From Patescibacteria group bacterium (GTDB lineage Bacteria; Patescibacteriota; Patescibacteriia; Patescibacteriales; BM507): DNA of 34,016 bases. The position numbers and the translations under genes were made by a program. Every line of letters begins with the position of its first letter. The first letter of the stretch is position 1. Shown piece by piece: positions 1,985-10,080 of the stretch. The stretch spans positions 1-34,016 of the forward strand of contig JAQIDC010000010.1 of assembly GCA_027858235.1 (NCBI GenBank), written 5' to 3'. The notes under the pieces are model-generated. The model ran no database searches. It was not told the origin of the DNA and saw nothing but the letters and a program-made list of their open reading frames with translations.

Positions 1985-2012
1985 AAAATAAAAGCCAGCT
2001 ATTTGCTGGCTT
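1985..2012 (-). terminator. Rho-independent terminator of the radical SAM-to-kinase operon
   Basis: Stem GCCAGC / GCTGGC with a 5-base loop (1994-2010), extended by AA/TT. On the minus strand it is followed by TTTTATTTTATATTTTTT. It lies directly after the kinase stop codon. Confidence 0.85.
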
Positions 2013-2014
2013 AA

Positions 2015-2554
2015 TTATAAATAGGTTAAAATTTCATTAACCACCTGATCTGCACTAAAATTTACGGTGTTTATTTTAACTAAATTATCAAATGAACAAT
2101 ATTTTTCTTGAACAAGGGCTAGTGTTTCTGAATCACGATCTTTTCTTGTAGTTTTTCTTTCGGAAATTCTTTTTTTGCGCTCTTCCTCATTAACTATCAG
2201 GAGAAAGGTAATATGAGGTTTTGATATTGGAAGGATCTTATCAAGAGGAATATTTTGAAGAAACCTTAACCCATATACAATATGGTAGATCCACGTTGAA
2301 TAAATATAGCGATCACATATAACATGGTCATTTTTCAAGAGCTTTCTTATTTCAAAAGACGAGATAATCGTTGCTGTAATAAAATATGCAAATCTTATTA
2401 ATGCGGGTGCATTTTCAAAGTATTTTCTAAAATTTGCTAAAAAACCGCTTGGTGTTTTAAAACAAATTCCTTTGAGTCTTTCAGCTAATTTTTTTGTAAC
2501 TGTCGTTTTCCCGCAACCATCAATTCCTTCTATAGCAATAAATAGATTACTCAA
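2015..2554 (-). CDS. Thymidylate kinase-like P-loop kinase
   Basis: A 179-residue P-loop NMP-kinase-fold protein of the dTMP kinase family, expected to phosphorylate dTMP (or a related nucleotide) with ATP in the cytoplasm. Walker A GIDGCGKTT is at residues 9-17 after an IAIEG strand, as in Tmk. The DR(Y/F) motif appears as CDRYIYSTW near residue 80, and a basic LID-like segment KKRISERKTTRK lies near residue 135. It is shorter than typical Tmk (about 205-215) and diverged, so it may be an orphan kinase with another nucleotide substrate. The start is TTG at 2554, overlapping the last 8 bases of the GreA-like gene, with GAGGTGA 6 bases upstream inside that gene: translational coupling is likely. 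Last gene of the operon. Confidence 0.8.
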   Translation of the reverse strand: MSNLFIAIEGIDGCGKTTVTKKLAERLKGICFKTPSGFLANFRKYFENAPALIRFAYFITATIISSFEIRKLLKNDHVICDRYIYSTWIYHIVYGLRFLQNIPLDKILPISKPHITFLLIVNEEERKKRISERKTTRKDRDSETLALVQEKYCSFDNLVKINTVNFSADQVVNEILTYL

Positions 2555-3035
2555 TTTTTATCACCTCACATTCTCTTTTCACCCCTGAAATATTAAGAGT
2601 GAATTCGTCCCCCTCTTCTCTGTTTAATAATTTTTTTCCCAAAGGAGAAGCGGGTGTAACAATTTTAAGACCATTAATTTTTTCTCCACCCAAGGTAGGA
2701 AACAAAAAATATTTTTCAATTATGCCATTTTTATCTCCTATTTCAATTATAGATCCAACTCGTCCCCTGCCGTTATCTTTGAATGCTTTAAAGTATAAGA
2801 TTGCTTCCTTTGAAATTTCAAGATTTTCAGTAGCCTTGTTGTACTTATTTTTCAGACCTTCTGCGAGATACTGGCCCTCTTCCTTGAAGGTGCTATACCT
2901 AGAATGCATTGCACCCTCTTCTTCATTAGCTCTATTCTGGGCGTCTTTGTATATTTGGCGACTTTCAGTTATATTGCTACTACACTTCGATAAAATAGCC
3001 TCAAAAATTTGGTTACGTAGTTTGTTAGCTTCCAT
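2547..3035 (-). CDS. GreA/GreB-like transcription factor
   Basis: 162 residues with the two-part layout of the Gre family: an N-terminal alpha-helical coiled-coil (about 1-85) and a C-terminal FKBP-like domain whose signature TPASPLGKKLLNREEGDEF (residues ~127-145) matches the Gre motif around SPLG..L. Gre factors enter the RNA polymerase secondary channel and stimulate cleavage of backtracked RNA. At the coil tip the usual acidic DLSENAEY is replaced by NEEEGAMHSRYSTFKEEG, closer to short Gre paralogues than to canonical GreA, so cleavage activity is uncertain. AAGGAT precedes the ATG. The 3' end overlaps the downstream kinase start by 8 bases. Confidence 0.75.
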   Translation of the reverse strand: MEANKLRNQIFEAILSKCSSNITESRQIYKDAQNRANEEEGAMHSRYSTFKEEGQYLAEGLKNKYNKATENLEISKEAILYFKAFKDNGRGRVGSIIEIGDKNGIIEKYFLFPTLGGEKINGLKIVTPASPLGKKLLNREEGDEFTLNISGVKRECEVIKIE

Positions 3036-3065
3036 TATATATCCTTTTCTTCTAGTGAATAGTTA

Positions 3066-3668
3066 TTAAAGGTTTTGGTTATTAAGAAAATTTTCTGGTA
3101 GTATGCCGTTTGCAGACTTCATAACTTCAAAGTAATGTCTGAAACTTTCCTTAACTTCTGGTAAAACTATTTTATTCTCCCAGTCAGTTCGAATTTTTCT
3201 TGAAGCATCTTCCAAGAGCGATTCAATACTTTTTTTCGGACTTTCGTAGAACCAGAGATGGTAGAATGGTCCCAATAAATGAGAAGCTCCATCAGCTGAT
3301 GATACTATTTTTACCTCTATCGAAGCGGCTAGAATTTTATCAGAATCTTTTGAGTCGATAATTTCAATTAAATTTATCACTTTTTGGGAAAAATCTTCAG
3401 GGAAATTAAGTTCTAAAAGTAGTTTTTCCCCACTTAGCTGTGTTTCTTGGTATTGATCGTTCATGTTGATTATTTTCCCATAATCATGCATCCACACCAA
3501 GGCCATCACTAAGTCAATATCAGCTTCCTTGTAAATATCACATAATTCCAAGGCTATCTTTTCAGCTATCTCTAAATGATATTTAACAAACCACTTGTGG
3601 TGTAAAAAATCCTTATTCCCTGCTAATTGTTTTATTTTATTTTTAAGGTTCAAAGTTAAATTTTCCAT
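3066..3668 (-). CDS. HD-domain phosphohydrolase
   Basis: A 200-residue metal-dependent phosphohydrolase of the HD superfamily. The expected H...HD...D set is visible: His31 (KYHLEIAEK), His61-Asp62 (WMHDYGK) and Asp126 (SSADGASHL). A typical helical body lies between, with no extra nucleotide-sensor domain. Family members hydrolyse nucleotides, cyclic nucleotides or other phosphoesters; the substrate cannot be read here. The gene starts 19 bases after the CYTH gene with a good AAGGAG SD, and the next gene follows after 30 bases. Pairing with a CYTH enzyme and a nucleotide kinase suggests nucleotide or polyphosphate chemistry (inference). Confidence 0.8.
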   Translation of the reverse strand: MENLTLNLKNKIKQLAGNKDFLHHKWFVKYHLEIAEKIALELCDIYKEADIDLVMALVWMHDYGKIINMNDQYQETQLSGEKLLLELNFPEDFSQKVINLIEIIDSKDSDKILAASIEVKIVSSADGASHLLGPFYHLWFYESPKKSIESLLEDASRKIRTDWENKIVLPEVKESFRHYFEVMKSANGILPENFLNNQNL

Positions 3669-3687
3669 TTTAATCTCCTTTAATATA

Positions 3688-4218
3688 TTAAAATTTTAAT
3701 TCCTTGATTTTTTTTAAATCTATCCCGATTGATGCGTAAAGCTTTTCTCCTACAATATCAGATGTATCTTTTCTTTCGTATCCAAGCAAAGCTAAGCCTT
3801 TATCAACATTTTCATTGGAATCTGATTCAATCTCTATGTATGGATTGAGTTTCGGCCAAGTATCTATGTCAAAAAAAGTTTTACCATATTTGTATTTTGC
3901 ACGTTTATTCTCCTGATAATTTTCTAGAACCAAACCAATTGAAGTTAAAAAATTTATCGTTTCTTCAAGGTTGTCTACTAAAACTGTATGTTCAATATCA
4001 TTTTCATCACCTCTTTGCTTATAGCTTAGTTCAATGATGTTATTTACCTCTCTTAATCTAACCCAGGCATTCTTCTCTCTTAGAGACTGACTTGGGTAGT
4101 CAAAGATGTATCTTTTTTGTAAAGCTTCAGAATGGATTTCTTCAGCTCCGCTTTTTTTGAGTTTATTTATGATTTCTTCCTTGTTGATGTTTAGGATTCT
4201 TGTTTCAAATTCTTTCAT
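3688..4218 (-). CDS. CYTH-domain protein (adenylate cyclase class IV / triphosphatase type)
   Basis: A 176-residue single-domain CYTH protein. The N-terminal signature ExExK appears as E3-F-E5-T-R7 (Arg in place of Lys). It is followed by charged beta-strand motifs facing the tunnel: WVRLREV, IELSYKQRG, then FFDIDTWPKLNPYIEIES with the acidic ExE on a late strand. CYTH enzymes bind triphosphate groups and divalent metal, acting as class IV adenylate cyclase, thiamine triphosphatase or inorganic triphosphatase; which applies is not readable. Unlike its operon neighbours it has no SD. A 78-bp gap with a small hairpin (4264-4284) separates it from the radical SAM gene, so expression may be set separately. 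Confidence 0.8.
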   Translation of the reverse strand: MKEFETRILNINKEEIINKLKKSGAEEIHSEALQKRYIFDYPSQSLREKNAWVRLREVNNIIELSYKQRGDENDIEHTVLVDNLEETINFLTSIGLVLENYQENKRAKYKYGKTFFDIDTWPKLNPYIEIESDSNENVDKGLALLGYERKDTSDIVGEKLYASIGIDLKKIKELKF

Positions 4219-4263
4219 ATGAAAAGATTAATTATAAATATTTAAAATAGTTACTTTTAGAAT

Positions 4264-4284
4264 GCCAGGATAATTAGTCCTGGC
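4264..4284. repeat. Small intergenic hairpin inside the operon
   Basis: GCCAGG and CCTGGC pair across a 9-base loop between the radical SAM and CYTH genes. On the minus strand it is not followed by a T-run, so an mRNA processing or stability element is likelier than a true terminator. Confidence 0.45.
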
Positions 4285-4296
4285 GATTAAATTAAA

Positions 4297-5694
4297 TTAT
4301 ATGCAAATAGGAACTTTGATGTCATTAATAACCTCGTTCGCGATAAATCGCTCTTTGTATTCAGGGTCAAGAAGTGGATTGACATTGCGATTACCTGTTC
4401 TAATGGCAAGTTGGTCAAATCCCCAAATCAATTGTTCTCTTGTTAGACTTTCTGGACAAGCAACTGGTTGTTTATGCGTAAAGCGATTCAAGTCGTTTAC
4501 AAACAACTCATTGCCACTTTCAAGCGGAAAGATTCCATCTTGTGGATGGGGTGTCCAAAAAGTTCCGTAAACAACAGTCTGAGGGTAAGTTCCAAGGCTT
4601 TCTAAAAATTGCAAAGTAATTTCTAAATCCTCAATCGTTTGGCCAGGAATCCCGATAATGAATATCGGATTGATTTTTAAACCATGCTCCAAAACATTAT
4701 TCAATACCTTGGCAATCATGGCGGAATTAACTTTACCTCCCTTGTCGATTTTTTTTAGTAGTTTATCACTTACGGTTTCAACACCAAAGTGAATATAATC
4801 CACTCCTGCAAAAATCATAGTTTCGAGAAGCTTGTTGTCTACAATCCCATCGATACGTGATTTTAACTTGATACCTAGACCAAGACCTTCTTCTCCAATT
4901 GCTTGGAAAAGATTCAGAGAATAGCTATCCTTAACGGTTAGGGTTTCGTCTTTGAGGTGGACTCGTTTGAATCCTCGTTCCTTTAAGAATCGCATTTCTT
5001 TAACAATGTTTTCAACTGGTCTTGTTCTATACTTTCTTTCCCAAAACTTACTAACGCTACAAAAACTACAAGCAAAGGGACATCCACGACTGCACATGAC
5101 ATGGGCATTGGTATATTTTCGGTAAACATCCAACGGAAGCTTTTCGTATGTCTGGACATTAATTTCCGGAAGCACACATAAGAGTTGCTGTTTTTTATTG
5201 TGAATAATTTCACCCTGGTCATTGATGAAGGAGACACCAGGAATATTTCCCAGATAAACGGAGTCTATTTTTCTGATTGAAAATGCATTTAATAAATTTA
5301 TAAATGAGATTTCACCTTCCCCTGAAACCAAATAATCGACTGATGAGTGCCCTAGGCAATAGTCTCTGTTTTGAGTTGGAAATATTCCCCCAAGTATTGT
5401 AATTTTCCCTAGCTGCTTTGCAATTTTGAATAGCCTGACAGTTTCTGGAAAATCACTAGATGAAGAACCAATAGCTATGACGTCAAAATTCCTGAAGTCA
5501 TCCTCTGGATTAATATTCGTTGTTCCTGTCTCTAGTGCTTGCAATCTGTAGTCTAGAATTTCAAAGTTGTGATTTGAATTTTCTTTCAAATATTGACCTA
5601 AATTCAAATATGATAGAGGAATACCAATTTCTTGCTTATCTCCTACGGGAAATTTTACAAGTGGCTTTACAAACAATATATTTAATGTTTTCAT
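4297..5694 (-). CDS. B12-binding-type radical SAM protein
   Basis: 465 residues. Residues ~1-150 resemble the cobalamin-binding domain of BchE-type radical SAM enzymes (a GSSSSDF loop, then ILGGIFPT and LVSGEGE), but the DxHxxG cobalamin ligand motif is not evident. The radical SAM core follows with CSRGCPFACSFC, the CxxxCxxC 4Fe-4S motif, at about residue 200, then YIHFGVET and IFIIGIPGQT in the barrel. Such enzymes cleave S-adenosylmethionine to make radicals for methylation, ring formation or other difficult steps; the substrate is unknown. It starts at an ATG with AAGGAG 6 bases upstream, behind a near-consensus promoter, and is the first gene of the operon ending at 2015. Confidence 0.85.
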   Translation of the reverse strand: MKTLNILFVKPLVKFPVGDKQEIGIPLSYLNLGQYLKENSNHNFEILDYRLQALETGTTNINPEDDFRNFDVIAIGSSSSDFPETVRLFKIAKQLGKITILGGIFPTQNRDYCLGHSSVDYLVSGEGEISFINLLNAFSIRKIDSVYLGNIPGVSFINDQGEIIHNKKQQLLCVLPEINVQTYEKLPLDVYRKYTNAHVMCSRGCPFACSFCSVSKFWERKYRTRPVENIVKEMRFLKERGFKRVHLKDETLTVKDSYSLNLFQAIGEEGLGLGIKLKSRIDGIVDNKLLETMIFAGVDYIHFGVETVSDKLLKKIDKGGKVNSAMIAKVLNNVLEHGLKINPIFIIGIPGQTIEDLEITLQFLESLGTYPQTVVYGTFWTPHPQDGIFPLESGNELFVNDLNRFTHKQPVACPESLTREQLIWGFDQLAIRTGNRNVNPLLDPEYKERFIANEVINDIKVPICI

Positions 5695-5765
5695 CCTTAT
5701 CTCCTTTGCTTTTCAGCACTGTTACTATTTGCTTTTTTATAATTCTTTAAAGAGCTGTTCAAAAT

Positions 5766-5794
5766 ACTATATAATTATTATCATCTTTTGTCAA
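5766..5794 (-). promoter_or_regulatory. Promoter of the radical SAM operon
   Basis: On the minus strand: TTGACA (5794-5789), 17-base spacer, TATAGT (5771-5766), about 65 bases before the radical SAM leader with its AAGGAG. One of the best sigma-70-type promoters in the window. Confidence 0.8.
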
Positions 5795-5798
5795 TGGT

Positions 5799-5828
5799 TT
5801 GCACTCGACCATGCATAGAAGGTATAAT
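5799..5828 (+). promoter_or_regulatory. Divergent plus-strand promoter towards the transposase
   Basis: TTGCAC (5799-5804), 18-base spacer, TATAAT (5823-5828). Its -35 lies 4 bases from the -35 of the divergent minus-strand promoter. The transcript would carry a leader of about 230 bases, including the large hairpin at 5955-6016, before the transposase. Confidence 0.6.
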
Positions 5829-5954
5829 ACATAATGTGATTTGGCAGAAGATAATTATTCGTAAATTTTTAAAGTATTTCAGAAATAAATATTTTTGCCT
5901 TTCAATGTTTTGGCATTATTTTGAGATTGAAAAAGATTTTAATATTTTAATAAA

Positions 5955-6016
5955 AAAAGAACATGAGTTAAAATAGTGGTGTTAACTAACTATTAAAACT
6001 AAATTCATGTCCTTTT
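5955..6016. repeat. Large imperfect hairpin upstream of the transposase
   Basis: A 15-base arm AAAAGAACATGAGTT (5955-5969) is complementary at 13 of 15 positions to 6002-6016, with further pairing inside (AAAATAGT against ACTATT). It may be the left end of the insertion element or a translational control hairpin. I found no matching copy right of the transposase. Confidence 0.5.
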
Positions 6017-6066
6017 GTTCAATTGTAATGTCTTACAAAGAAAATTGCAAAGTTGAGGGTGAGATT

Positions 6067-7245
6067 ATGACTAAATTCAAAATTGCCCGTATGTATTTTG
6101 CTTCAAGCAAGAAACAAAATGCTATCAGTGAATACCTAAATTGCCACAAAAATACCGTTCTAGGGATAATTAGAGCCTGCAAGGTTCATGATCCCAGTAA
6201 TGAAATATGGAAATATTTAAAGGATAAAAACTTACACATCTCTGAAGAGAAGCTAAAGTCACTATTTTCATTTTTTGCCCATCAATCAAGAGCGCCACTT
6301 AGGAATAAAAGTGCTATTCAAAAAGACAGTGATGAAGAGAAATTGATTATTGAAAAATTTGAAGATAAAAAATGGGGACCAAAAAGAATGTATCGTAATT
6401 TAGCTAGACAAGGATTTGATATGAATATTTATTCATTGGGCAAAATTAAAGGAGTTCACAAGAGAAATGAGTTTAAAACTAGAAAAATACGGACTTTTAA
6501 TGGTGAACGGAGATCCTTGTATAATTATGATGAAATTGAAGCATTTGAATATTTGCAATATGACACCAAAACCATTGCAGACAAACATGCTCTACCAAAA
6601 GACATATACGATAAATTTAAGTATGGTGAGCAATTACCAAAAATTCAATGGACGATAATTGATGCTAAAACAAAAACCAGGTTTTTGGCCTGGTCATATA
6701 ATCGTTCTAGTACCTTTGGACTTAAATTCTTGCTATTTGTTATTAGTTGGCTGAGGTCACATGGAATACGAACAAAAATAAATATTCAGGTAGATATGGG
6801 GATGGAATTCTACTCTGGCTCAAAAATTAAACAGGAGATATGGAACGAAGAATTAGAAAAATACAATGCTTATGCCTATGATACAGAAGGAGTTAAGTGG
6901 AAACAGAATATTGTAGAACGATCACACAGAGTTGATGATGAAGAGTTCTACTGTCCTAGAGGTGAGAAAATCAATGACAAAACAGAGTTTATGATTGAAG
7001 GACAATTTTGGATTATCTATTACAATCATCGCCCTAGCTACAGTATTGGCTTAAATGGAATATCGCCGAAAGAAAAAATGGAGAAACTAGGAATTTACAA
7101 TGCTGAAAAAATTGCAAATTTCCCTTGTTTAATTTTAGAAGACTTTTTCCAACCTTTACTTTTATTTTTCAATAATAGTAATCAAAAAATCTTGGAAGAA
7201 AAATCACAAAATGTTTTGACTAATTACCATGATATTAAATCCTAA
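6067..7245 (+). CDS. DDE transposase (integrase-core, IS481/IS3-like)
   Basis: 392 residues from the ATG at 6067, chosen because GAGGGTGAG precedes it; the frame is open further upstream. An N-terminal helix-turn-helix-like part (KIARMYF, AISEYLNCHKNTVLGIIRA) is followed by a retroviral-integrase-type core: first Asp in YLQYDTKTIAD, second Asp in NIQVDMGMEFYSG, Glu in the QNIVERSHRVDDEEF region. Then comes YYNHRPSYSIGLNGISPKE, the usual C-terminal hallmark (YNxxRPHxxLxxxTPxE). It catalyses DNA strand transfer. The catalytic triad appears intact, so activity is possible, but clear terminal inverted repeats on both sides are not seen. Exact IS family uncertain. Confidence 0.85.
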   Translation: MTKFKIARMYFASSKKQNAISEYLNCHKNTVLGIIRACKVHDPSNEIWKYLKDKNLHISEEKLKSLFSFFAHQSRAPLRNKSAIQKDSDEEKLIIEKFEDKKWGPKRMYRNLARQGFDMNIYSLGKIKGVHKRNEFKTRKIRTFNGERRSLYNYDEIEAFEYLQYDTKTIADKHALPKDIYDKFKYGEQLPKIQWTIIDAKTKTRFLAWSYNRSSTFGLKFLLFVISWLRSHGIRTKINIQVDMGMEFYSGSKIKQEIWNEELEKYNAYAYDTEGVKWKQNIVERSHRVDDEEFYCPRGEKINDKTEFMIEGQFWIIYYNHRPSYSIGLNGISPKEKMEKLGIYNAEKIANFPCLILEDFFQPLLLFFNNSNQKILEEKSQNVLTNYHDIKS

Positions 7246-7351
7246 ATCCTAAATTCGAAATTCTAAACAAATAATAAATTCAAAAGAGTTTTGATGTTTG
7301 CATTTAATTTTTAGAATTTGTTTGGGCTTTAGAATTTAGGGCTTAGTATTT
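7236..7351. repeat. Palindromic non-autonomous repeat element
   Basis: The left arm (AAATCCTAAATTC, AAATTCTAAACAAAT) and right arm (AATTTGTTT, TTTAGAATTTAGGGCTTAG) are about 35-base imperfect inverted repeats around a short AT-rich centre. It begins within the last codons of the transposase gene. It looks like a MITE-like or REP-like palindrome unrelated to the transposase ends. Confidence 0.65.
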
Positions 7352-7396
7352 TTACTTTACTAGCTTTTATGCAAACAAGAGTGTATTTTTCATGCA

Positions 7397-7425
7397 TTGA
7401 TTATTAATTTAGAAGATTGTATAAT
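7397..7425 (+). promoter_or_regulatory. Promoter for a leaderless transcript
   Basis: TTGATT (7397-7402), 17-base spacer, perfect TATAAT (7420-7425). Only 7 bases separate the -10 from the ATG at 7433, so transcription should start at or next to the start codon. It probably serves the small membrane protein and the mraY cluster behind it. Confidence 0.75.
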
Positions 7426-7432
7426 CAAGATA

Positions 7433-7864
7433 ATGTTTAATAAAAGTATTTCAAAATTTATTGATCTCGCTTATTCTTGGTGGGATTATTTTACGTCGGA
7501 GATATCAAGTGTTTTTAGCTTCCTTTATGTTAAAATATATTTTGTTTTTTTTATAGCTGTTAATGGAATCAACTGGTTATTTTCTTATTATATTTTCTCA
7601 AATATATTGCCAGAGACAAGGGAGCTAATCGCTCTTCATTACAATGTTGAGTTTGGAGTTAATTTAATAGGAAATGCCAACAATATTTTTATATTGCCTA
7701 GTTTAGGGCTACTTATTATTGTTATTAATTTTTCCTTACTGTTGAGCATTTATAAATTAAAAAATTCTAAATTCCTGGGTAATTTTTTACTTCTTCCGGC
7801 TCTTATTTCCAATGTATATCTATTAATAGGTCTTGTTTCTATATACCTAGCTAATTTCAAATAA
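7433..7864 (+). CDS. Small multi-pass membrane protein of unknown function
   Basis: 143 residues from the ATG at 7433, placed by the promoter just upstream; the TTG at 7397 overlaps the -35 and is rejected. Three hydrophobic segments are visible: VKIYFVFFIAVNGINWLFSY (~35-55), FILPSLGLLIIVINFSLLLS (~87-107) and the LLLPALISNVYLLIGLVSIYL region (~115-138). The family is not recognised with certainty. It ends 20 bases before mraY and has no terminator, so it is likely co-transcribed with the peptidoglycan precursor genes. No SD. Confidence 0.7.
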   Translation: MFNKSISKFIDLAYSWWDYFTSEISSVFSFLYVKIYFVFFIAVNGINWLFSYYIFSNILPETRELIALHYNVEFGVNLIGNANNIFILPSLGLLIIVINFSLLLSIYKLKNSKFLGNFLLLPALISNVYLLIGLVSIYLANFK

Positions 7865-7884
7865 AAATTTAAATATTACTTTAT

Positions 7885-8937
7885 ATGCAAGATTTCTACA
7901 TTATACGAATATTTTTACTTACTGCCGCTGCTTTTGTCTTTACTATTTTTTGGACACCTCTTTTTACTCATTTTTTGTATAAGTATAAATTGGGAAAAAA
8001 AATAAGATCAAGCGGTGATACTCCTATTTATACAAAAATGCATGCTCACAAAACAGGGACTCCAACTATGGGAGGGGTTTTGATATGGGTTACAGTGCTA
8101 ATTTTTTCACTCCTATTTTTTTATTTAGCCAAATTTTTTCCGGGAGGTTTTATTGAAAATCTAAATTTTCTAAATAGAGCAGAGACTCTTCTTCCCCTAG
8201 GCGTTTTAGTCGCTTCGGCCCTAATCGGTCTTTTTGATGATTGGCTGGATGTTCGAGGTATTGGTGTTCGAGGCGGAGGGGGACTTAGCATGGGCCACAG
8301 ATTATTAATCTATACTTTCATCGCGATCGTCGGAGCTTTCTGGTTTTATTTTAAGCTTGGGTGGGATGTTTTTCACGTCCCTTTTTTGGGAGACTTTACT
8401 CTTGGTTGGTCCTATATTTTAATATTTATAATTGTAATAGTTGCAACTTCATTTTCTGTTAATGAAACCGATGGCCTGGACGGACTTGCCGGGGGTGTGC
8501 TTCTTTTTTCTTTTGCTTCCTATGCTGTTATTTCTTTTTCAATGGGGAAATATGAATTAGCTACTTTTTGTGGAGTCATTGTTGGCGCTCTACTAGCTTT
8601 CTTGTGGTTTAACGTAATCCCTGCTCGTTTTTATATGGGAGATACTGGTGCAATGAGTCTTGGAGTTACCCTCGGAGTAATAGCCATGCTTACAAACACG
8701 GCTTTAATACTACCTATTATTGGGTTTGTCCTAGTTTTGGAATCTGTTTCAGTTATTTTACAAATTGGATCTAAAAAGTTACGTGGAGGCAAAAAAATAT
8801 TTTTGTCTGCACCAATTCATCATCATTTTGAGGCGAAGGGCTGGGCTGAACCAAAAATAGTTTTTCGTTTTTGGATAGTTTCGGGGATGACTGCAGTTAT
8901 TGGAATAATGATATTCTTACTTGATCATTCATTATAA
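7885..8937 (+). CDS. mraY: Phospho-N-acetylmuramoyl-pentapeptide transferase
   Basis: 350 residues. Transfers phospho-MurNAc-pentapeptide from UDP to undecaprenyl phosphate at the inner face of the membrane, making lipid I. Ten or so membrane segments are apparent. Family motifs: GTPTMGGVLIW near residue 57, DDW around residue 117, NETDGLDGLAGG (Mg-binding, ~193-203), FYMGDTGAMSLG (~254), and the cytoplasmic HIS motif PIHHHFEAKGW (~311). Length is normal. The stop codon abuts the ftsW ATG with no gap. No SD precedes the start. Confidence 0.95.
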   Translation: MQDFYIIRIFLLTAAAFVFTIFWTPLFTHFLYKYKLGKKIRSSGDTPIYTKMHAHKTGTPTMGGVLIWVTVLIFSLLFFYLAKFFPGGFIENLNFLNRAETLLPLGVLVASALIGLFDDWLDVRGIGVRGGGGLSMGHRLLIYTFIAIVGAFWFYFKLGWDVFHVPFLGDFTLGWSYILIFIIVIVATSFSVNETDGLDGLAGGVLLFSFASYAVISFSMGKYELATFCGVIVGALLAFLWFNVIPARFYMGDTGAMSLGVTLGVIAMLTNTALILPIIGFVLVLESVSVILQIGSKKLRGGKKIFLSAPIHHHFEAKGWAEPKIVFRFWIVSGMTAVIGIMIFLLDHSL

Positions 8938-10080
8938 ATGGGAAGATTAATACAAAAATTTAAACGTCTCCTTGGCGCTGGTCCAAGAGAACATGCCCCT
9001 GACTATATTTTAATAGGGAGTGTTTTTGTGATGATTTTATTTGGTCTTATTATGCTCTCCAGCGCTTCATCAGCGAAAGCATATCTAGACTTCAAAAATA
9101 CTTATTATTATTTCAATCATCAGTTGTTTGGAATCGGAATTGGTCTTATCGCATTTTTTATTTTTTCAAGACTAAATTATCGAATATTGCAAGACTATGC
9201 TGGTTGGTTTTTGATTGGTTCTATATTTCTTTTACTTCTAGTATTTATTCCAGGTCTTAGCGCTAGTTACGGGAAGGCAAGGTCATGGATAAATGTTTTT
9301 GGTTTCTCTCTCCAGCCATCAGAATTTGTTAAGATATCTTTTTTGCTTTATTTGTCTGCTTGGCTTGATAGGCGAGGGATGAGCTTGAAAAATATTTCCG
9401 AGGGGATTGGCCCCTTTGTTTTAGTTCTCGGTTTCATTGGCCTATTAATGCTTTTGCAACCAGACTTCGGCACACTTTTTATAATAGGATTTACTTCTTT
9501 GATTATTTATTATGTTGGTGGAGGAAGCAAAAGACATATCGCCTATATTTTTCTTTTTAGTCTCCTTGGGTTTATTCTAATGGTTAATATGCGACCCTAT
9601 CAAATGGATAGAATAAAATGTATGATGGACCCAGGATACAGTCCTGATGATGTTTGTTTCCAAATAAATCAGTCTTTAATAGCGGTTGGCTCTGGTGGTT
9701 TTTGGGGACGTGGCTTTGGGGAGTCTAGACAAAAATTTTCATATTTACCTGAGGTGAGCAGTGATTCAATTTTTGCAATTATCGGAGAAGAAACAGGGAT
9801 GCTATTTGGAGTGATTCTCCTAGGTCTATATTTTGTAATATTTTATCGTGGAGTAATGATAGCCAAAAAAGCACCCGATGGATATGGACGTATTCTAGCT
9901 ACGGGTATTGTAACTTGGATTTCAGTTCAGGCTATTATTAACATAGGAGGAATAATAAATCTTATGCCCATGACAGGAGTTCCCCTGCCTTTTATAAGTT
10001 ACGGGGGTTCGGCTATGCTAGCTTCTCTAATCGCAGTTGGGATACTTGTAAACATTTCAAAACAAACTAAATTAAGATAA
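8938..10080 (+). CDS. ftsW: FtsW/RodA family SEDS glycosyltransferase (lipid II polymerase)
   Basis: 380 residues, about ten membrane segments, SEDS family. It polymerises lipid II into glycan strands together with a class B penicillin-binding protein. Visible signatures: GIGLIAFFIFSRLNY, FSLQPSEFVKISFLLYLSAW, LQPDFGTLFI, the extracellular loop GRGFGESRQKFSYLPEVSSD with IFAIIGEE, and C-terminal PFISYGGSAMLASLIAVGIL. Location directly after mraY and before murG matches ftsW in the dcw cluster, so FtsW is preferred to RodA. It begins at the base after the mraY stop and has no SD of its own, so reinitiation is likely. murD, usually next to ftsW, is absent from this window. Confidence 0.92.
   Translation: MGRLIQKFKRLLGAGPREHAPDYILIGSVFVMILFGLIMLSSASSAKAYLDFKNTYYYFNHQLFGIGIGLIAFFIFSRLNYRILQDYAGWFLIGSIFLLLLVFIPGLSASYGKARSWINVFGFSLQPSEFVKISFLLYLSAWLDRRGMSLKNISEGIGPFVLVLGFIGLLMLLQPDFGTLFIIGFTSLIIYYVGGGSKRHIAYIFLFSLLGFILMVNMRPYQMDRIKCMMDPGYSPDDVCFQINQSLIAVGSGGFWGRGFGESRQKFSYLPEVSSDSIFAIIGEETGMLFGVILLGLYFVIFYRGVMIAKKAPDGYGRILATGIVTWISVQAIINIGGIINLMPMTGVPLPFISYGGSAMLASLIAVGILVNISKQTKLR

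Follow-up and report, generated by a model that had tools for sequence, protein, structure and literature searches.

Several described systems use altered nucleotides against a competitor or protect RNA synthesis from them. For instance, the analogues made by viperins, which are radical S-adenosylmethionine (SAM) enzymes, block phage RNA synthesis (PMC12926258). The genes thmA-thmB-thmC for 4'-thiothymidine combine a radical SAM enzyme, a nucleoside kinase and a nucleotide triphosphatase that alone confers resistance (PMC12691670), and in the oxetanocin A pair a B12-dependent radical SAM enzyme, OxsB, goes with an HD phosphohydrolase, OxsA, acting on adenine deoxynucleotides (PMC7074753). On the side of the polymerase, TFIIS removes analogues, 3'-deoxy-AMP included, from RNA polymerase II, while mitochondrial POLRMT remains sensitive, and the authors of that work suggested that prokaryotic factors may act likewise (PMC3499576); cleavage assisted by GreA is more than 10 times faster beside incorporated oxazinomycin, a nucleoside antibiotic (PMC6821320). 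Here we describe a five-gene operon from a Patescibacteria group bacterium (GTDB lineage BM507), located in a 34,016-nucleotide stretch of contig JAQIDC010000010.1 (assembly GCA_027858235.1) that we refer to as the window. It encodes a B12-binding-type radical SAM enzyme, a CYTH protein, an HD hydrolase, a Gre-family factor and a thymidylate kinase (Tmk)-like kinase, and radical SAM (of one class or another), CYTH, Gre and Tmk genes recur together in other loci.

The system pVip with VakA (RSAD2 with CMPK2 in eukaryotes) resembles the operon in pairing a Tmk-like kinase with an adjacent radical SAM enzyme, in the match of the window kinase to VakA and in the expected type of product, an RNA-terminating nucleotide. 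However, the window radical SAM enzyme is of the B12 type and not a viperin, and the literature we found names neither CYTH nor Gre as a partner of viperin. A viperin identity was also rejected for the radical SAM enzyme of the related locus L108, which lies below all curated cut-offs, has MoaA as its nearest NCBIfam family and scores no better against pVip than an unrelated SPASM peptide maturase. PDC-M51, made up of a radical SAM protein (A) and a Tmk-like protein (B), is likewise comparable in its kinase and in the presence of a radical SAM enzyme, but the PDC-M51A match in the window is unspecific and CYTH, Gre and HD are additional; no paper on PDC-M51 was found in our literature search. 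The likeness to thmA-thmB-thmC is one of gene roles (radical SAM enzyme, nucleoside kinase, self-resistance nucleotide triphosphatase), and that set has no Gre and yields a secreted antibiotic. With OxsB-OxsA the operon shares a B12-dependent radical SAM enzyme and an HD phosphohydrolase, the kinase, CYTH and Gre being extra. The window Gre, finally, has the full coiled coil and C-terminal domain of GreA, GreB and Gfh1, but differs from them in its tip sequence and in its company of nucleotide enzymes.

The association of Tmk, Gre, CYTH and radical SAM genes is real and not a product of chance. A search with the kinase in 21 relatives led to contig 92 of genome G389 (L108), where the Gre gene overlaps that for Tmk, and the genes for a radical SAM enzyme and a CYTH protein form a divergent pair (identity to the window proteins: Tmk 50%, Gre 43%); kinase scans then added L109 and L111, and L206-L213 from 334 genomes of the class. 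L108 and L206 hold all four families with a MoaA-like radical SAM enzyme, and L207 has the MoaA-like enzyme, CYTH and Tmk. A B12-type enzyme accompanies CYTH and Tmk in L209, a weak CYTH (19.4 bits, cut-off 23.2) and Tmk in L211, and Tmk at a contig end in L212. L111 combines Gre and Tmk with a gene that is CYTH-like but unrecognized by Pfam, L109 and L210 have CYTH and Tmk, and in L104 a B12 radical SAM gene overlaps a more distant Tmk-like gene. Within 3 kb, CYTH or Gre is found near 8/14 other kinases of the accessory clade versus 0/116 other Tmk genes (Fisher p 2e-9; 7/14 if the weak L211 CYTH is excluded), and a radical SAM gene near 6/14 versus 2/116 (p 1e-5). This control gave all Tmk genes of the fetched loci the same treatment and was restricted to loci that kinase similarity had found; since the search profiles came from module members, the independent Pfam matches matter.

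In the tree the kinases of the module, that of the window among them, form one group of 16 rows with a Shimodaira-Hasegawa-like approximate likelihood ratio test (SH-aLRT) support of 99, outside which fall the housekeeping Tmks, including that of the window genome, and the Tmk-like gene of L104. L108/L079 is the sister of the window kinase and has a MoaA-like radical SAM enzyme, while the kinases linked to B12-type enzymes (L209, L211, L212) form another subclade; thus the class of radical SAM enzyme is exchanged between loci, and with it the chemistry, whereas the kinase, CYTH and Gre are the recurring parts. The window kinase retains the P-loop GIDGCGKTT and a DRY motif, and among PADLOC models it matches PDC-M51B (3e-27) and VakA (9.1e-16; the L111 kinase reaches 3.5e-21), compared to 5e-8 for PDC-M51B and no VakA match for the housekeeping Tmk of the same genome. 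It is below the cut-off of TIGR00041, dTMP kinase (74.9 vs 83.25 bits). A housekeeping role was rejected because the genome has another Tmk in a different clade, a separate gene on contig C70 encoding a Tmk-dUTPase-type fusion (dUTPase part assigned by eye). PADLOC counts kinases of the accessory clade among its defence candidates. VakA, for which PADLOC gives no description, we take to mean “viperin-associated kinase”, and the DRY region presumably resembles that of human CMPK2, the partner kinase of viperin; a PDB search showed no CMPK2 structure.

Five members of the clade have neither CYTH nor Gre and are partnered by DUF1846 (L208, L112, L213) or by a ThiC-type radical SAM enzyme (L110, L113; by Pfam in the former, by resemblance in the latter). 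DUF1846 adjoins Tmk in L208 and L112 and is fused to it in L213 (5959-9769), where an HD gene ends 1 bp before it and a PEP-utiliser protein is encoded as well, which suggests that DUF1846 works with a nucleotide kinase. L110 (about 5062-9594) and L113 (about 5055-9576), from Hoeflea and Magnetospirillum, share a set of four genes for the ThiC-type enzyme, an Fe-alcohol dehydrogenase (assigned by eye), a toroid-like protein and the accessory Tmk, that of L110 matching PDC-M51B at 5e-21.

The window radical SAM enzyme belongs to the BchE/HpnJ-like superfamily and to no known subfamily, the best NCBIfam model, TIGR02026, giving 133 bits against a cut-off of 481. Its B12-binding domain is matched by Pfam at 6e-7 and 29.7 bits, slightly below the 32.1-bit cut-off, and its sequence weakly matches OxsB (5ul2, 1.1e-5). 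The PADLOC model scan gave it no pVip match. It has no match at E<=1e-60 other than itself in 380 genomes of the phylum, only distant B12 relatives in its own genome and, at the threshold used, no match in the same-genus genome G380, whose contig compared for an empty site ends inside mraY. In L105 (906-3890) the second B12 radical SAM gene of that genome adjoins an aminotransferase-like gene.

The Gre-family factor is the third in the genome, two other Gre genes being present, and in the 380 genomes it finds a single, weak match. Its AlphaFold2 model has a predicted local distance difference test score (pLDDT) of 84, and the module Gre proteins have in common the hairpin-tip motif N..EG.M.SRY.T..EE. 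In the CYTH protein the residues R54, R56, K67, R106, D119, E129 and E131 are invariant in eight relatives and the first motif reads EFETR in place of ExExK; among solved structures the family profile best matches Saci_0718, a triphosphate tunnel enzyme (2e-22). Two CYTH subfamilies occur across the module loci, and no second CYTH gene was found in the window genome.

The HD protein is a different case. Its metal ligands H31, H61-D62 and D126 are invariant in six orthologues. The 380 genomes hold five orthologues (39-52% identity). Neither these five nor one on a Calothrix plasmid adjoin a module partner, and none was present in the viral contigs searched, so HD was rejected as a conserved member. 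The HD neighbour of the L213 kinase is of another HD subfamily and a weak parallel. The window HD protein has no significant PDB sequence match, with OxsA absent among the matches, and its single-sequence structure model (pLDDT 46) was not used. A further pairing of CYTH and HD stands in L036 (5999-9762, genome G059), where MazG-like, CYTH-like, HD (distant), CYTH and Nudix-like open reading frames (ORFs) form what looks like a nucleotide clean-up cluster (MazG-like, first CYTH-like and Nudix-like ORFs assigned by eye).

A first-pass annotation of the window had treated the five genes as one system with a B12-type radical SAM enzyme and had looked to conservation of the set, in order, for support. 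Four of the families do stand together in L108 and L206, but in no conserved order; a fixed B12-type enzyme had to be given up, and the independence in relatives that it named as the contrary outcome applies to HD and not to the kinase, CYTH, Gre and radical SAM genes.

A copy is also carried by a phage. In the viral contig L218 (62.7 kb) the genes for Tmk, radical SAM and Gre overlap, and a gene for a portal protein (phrog_113, 2.4e-67) lies within 1 kb of them; the radical SAM enzyme matches the QueE-like model of PHROGs weakly. About 27 other viral Tmk genes have no module partner, and phages and plasmids searched directly with single proteins yielded either no match or distant ones of a generic kind. 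Two contigs of the viral collection whose host looks actinobacterial (L219, 5376-8285; L220, 5857-7607) have a CYTH gene adjoining one for a MoaA-like radical SAM enzyme, in one case followed by a PCMT-type methyltransferase; these are a possible biosynthetic cluster. PD-Lambda-2 B and C are found on the contig of L108 as well, together with a type II methylase fused to LexA.

Returning to the operon itself (Table 1), the first-pass annotation was right about the five minus-strand genes, each of which has a Pfam match that backs its name, and about their close spacing (78, 19 and 30 bp from radical SAM onwards, then an 8-bp overlap of Gre and Tmk). Shine-Dalgarno sequences precede every gene of the operon except CYTH, and the majority of core genes in the window are without, again as it described. 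Its single promoter and terminator both exist; the promoter is not the only one, as a site of equal quality falls at the end of the radical SAM gene, directly upstream of CYTH. Judging by this site, radical SAM and CYTH-HD-Gre-Tmk may be two transcripts. The window has only three sites with 11/12 consensus bases, each of them on the minus strand and upstream of an accessory gene; 0.18 per 5 kb would be expected over both strands. The third, TTGACA-N17-TATGAT with an extended -10 (region 1517-1842), overlaps the palindrome ATAACATGTGTTAT and precedes a small ORF (ATG about 1750, strong Shine-Dalgarno) that runs into GGGGTCAG-type repeats and resembles an accessory gene that is truncated and under regulation. 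Further neighbours are a divergent 412-amino-acid transposase/integrase-like ORF (6007-7245; no Pfam match at E<=0.1) and a lipoprotein-like ORF (841-1275) matching PF25682, the Mycobacterium phage VG64 family, at 1.4e-54, with a GC content of 0.416, above its surroundings.

Table 1. Genes and signals of the operon; positions are those of the window.
Feature	Position	Strand	Details
Sigma-70-type promoter TTGACA-N17-TATAGT, upstream of radical SAM gene	5766..5794	-	11/12 consensus bases
B12-binding-type radical SAM enzyme, CX3CX2C motif (CPFACSFC)	4297..5694	-	465 aa; Pfam Radical_SAM 1.7e-25
Second promoter-like site ATGACA-N18-TATAAT, ahead of CYTH	4296..4325	-	11/12 consensus bases
7-bp GC-rich hairpin in radical SAM-CYTH gap, without U-run	4264..4284	-	-12.2 kcal/mol for gap
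CYTH (triphosphate tunnel) protein	3688..4218	-	176 aa; Pfam CYTH (PF01928) 3e-11
HD-superfamily phosphohydrolase	3066..3668	-	200 aa; Pfam HD 8.7e-5, slightly above cut-off
Gre-family factor, N-terminal coiled-coil hairpin and C-terminal RNA polymerase-binding domain	2547..3035	-	162 aa; Pfam GreA_GreB C-term 2.2e-7
Accessory Tmk-like nucleotide kinase (PDC-M51B/VakA-like)	2015..2554	-	179 aa, TTG start; Pfam Thymidylate_kin 6e-23
Intrinsic terminator	1992..2012	-	3' of Tmk-like gene

We propose that the operon encodes a conflict module producing a nucleotide analogue, on viperin-like logic but with an enzyme other than viperin. To this reading we give a probability of roughly 45%; it takes its substrate, product, chain termination, rescue by Gre and antiphage role from analogy with the systems above. 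The joint presence of a nucleotide kinase and a radical SAM enzyme whose class can be exchanged speaks for nucleotide chemistry, and a Gre factor within the set makes a product acting at the level of RNA the best explanation. The radical SAM enzyme, B12-type here and MoaA-like in the closest relatives, would alter a nucleotide, and the accessory kinase of the Tmk/VakA type would phosphorylate its substrate or product. The resulting triphosphate might then be incorporated into RNA and stop or stall it, to greatest benefit in phage transcription or under stress, while Gre, in the secondary channel of the multisubunit host RNA polymerase, would excise the bad 3' end or exclude the analogue. CYTH, and here also HD, might remove phosphate from surplus or leftover nucleotides or perform a step of the pathway, in the manner of OxsA with OxsB. 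Phages are the most likely target, although rivals are also conceivable. A modified nucleotide synthesized to act on transcription had been among the first suggestions made for this DNA, as had a role in defence, and the joint recurrence of Tmk, Gre, CYTH and radical SAM genes in other genomes, and of Tmk, radical SAM and Gre in a phage, makes that family of hypotheses a sound one.

More tentatively, and with distinctly less confidence, we speculate that such loci represent a class of immune or conflict systems not described before. Radical SAM enzymes that can replace one another (B12-type, MoaA-like, perhaps ThiC-like) would, together with a VakA-like kinase, produce RNA-poisoning nucleotides; the module's own Gre would spare the multisubunit polymerase of the host and not the single-subunit polymerases of phages, and phages would have captured the set in turn.

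A number of observations weigh against a conflict module of this kind. The Gre tip keeps E40, E52 and E53, but S48 replaces the D of the relatives' YDT and the position of GreA D41 aligns to N; the structures closest to the model are of Gfh1, an anti-cleavage factor (best Foldseek match 3aoi, Gfh1 bound to RNA polymerase, E 3.3e-8). For both reasons transcript cleavage by this protein is not assured. Gre is absent near several accessory kinases, and HD is linked to the set in this window only. The pVip matches of module radical SAM enzymes are unspecific, and the PDC-M51A match of the window enzyme (7.7e-16) was dropped as evidence because unrelated B12 paralogues score as well, one from the same genome at 2.8e-18. 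A defence island is seen on one contig only, that of L108, and the composition of the operon shows no sign of a recent horizontal gain, its GC content and codon use being ordinary.

Alternatively, a hypermodified nucleotide might be put into DNA or RNA deliberately, in the genome or in tRNA, with Gre aiding the polymerase on modified templates or transcripts. A nucleotide kinase, a radical SAM enzyme and hydrolases would suit such a pathway, as would the phage copy with its weak QueE-like match, but the loci read have no gene for a polymerase, transferase, glycosylase or DNA modification alongside the module, and the radical SAM class varies whereas Gre and CYTH recur; we regard this as unlikely, if the best placed of the alternatives. 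Somewhat less probable is a gene cluster that makes a nucleoside antibiotic for export, in which CYTH, HD and Gre would serve the self-resistance of the producer. The logic is that of thmA-C (PMC12691670) and of oxsB/oxsA (PMC7074753); the operon, however, has no exporter or regulator, and the copies on a phage and on the PD-Lambda-2 contig better suit a conflict with mobile elements. It is also conceivable, though we think it quite improbable, that independent accessory genes have gathered at a common insertion spot as loose cargo, radical SAM and HD being unrelated passengers in particular. The second promoter, which separates radical SAM from the remaining genes, would fit, and HD orthologues and B12-type enzymes are otherwise unlinked to the Tmk subclade of the window; against this, the kinase recurs with CYTH or Gre far above the Tmk control and adjoins a radical SAM gene of some class in the window, L108, L206, L207, L209, L211, L212 and L218. 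A nucleotide second messenger, also suggested by the first-pass annotation, in which CYTH would be the class IV adenylate cyclase, HD the phosphodiesterase and Gre the output on RNA polymerase, is very unlikely. In its favour, the L108 CYTH passes the cut-off of the CyaB model TIGR00318 (65.9 vs 57.95 bits); the window CYTH, however, reaches only 25.0 bits, the module holds two CYTH subfamilies and lacks HD in relatives, and this reading leaves the radical SAM enzyme and kinase without a role.

Our literature searches on the gene set, on PDC-M51 and on Gre with viperin found no description of the set, so whatever its product, the combination of Gre, a nucleotide kinase, CYTH and swappable radical SAM enzymes, phage copy included, is not described in the literature we found. 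If a conflict module making a nucleotide analogue is indeed encoded here, a small, testable gene set has been named from which new nucleotide analogues can be predicted, and the viperin principle would extend to other radical SAM chemistries. Gre would then be an encoded immunity factor against an RNA-terminating nucleotide, which would explain how a cell can poison RNA synthesis without arresting its own.

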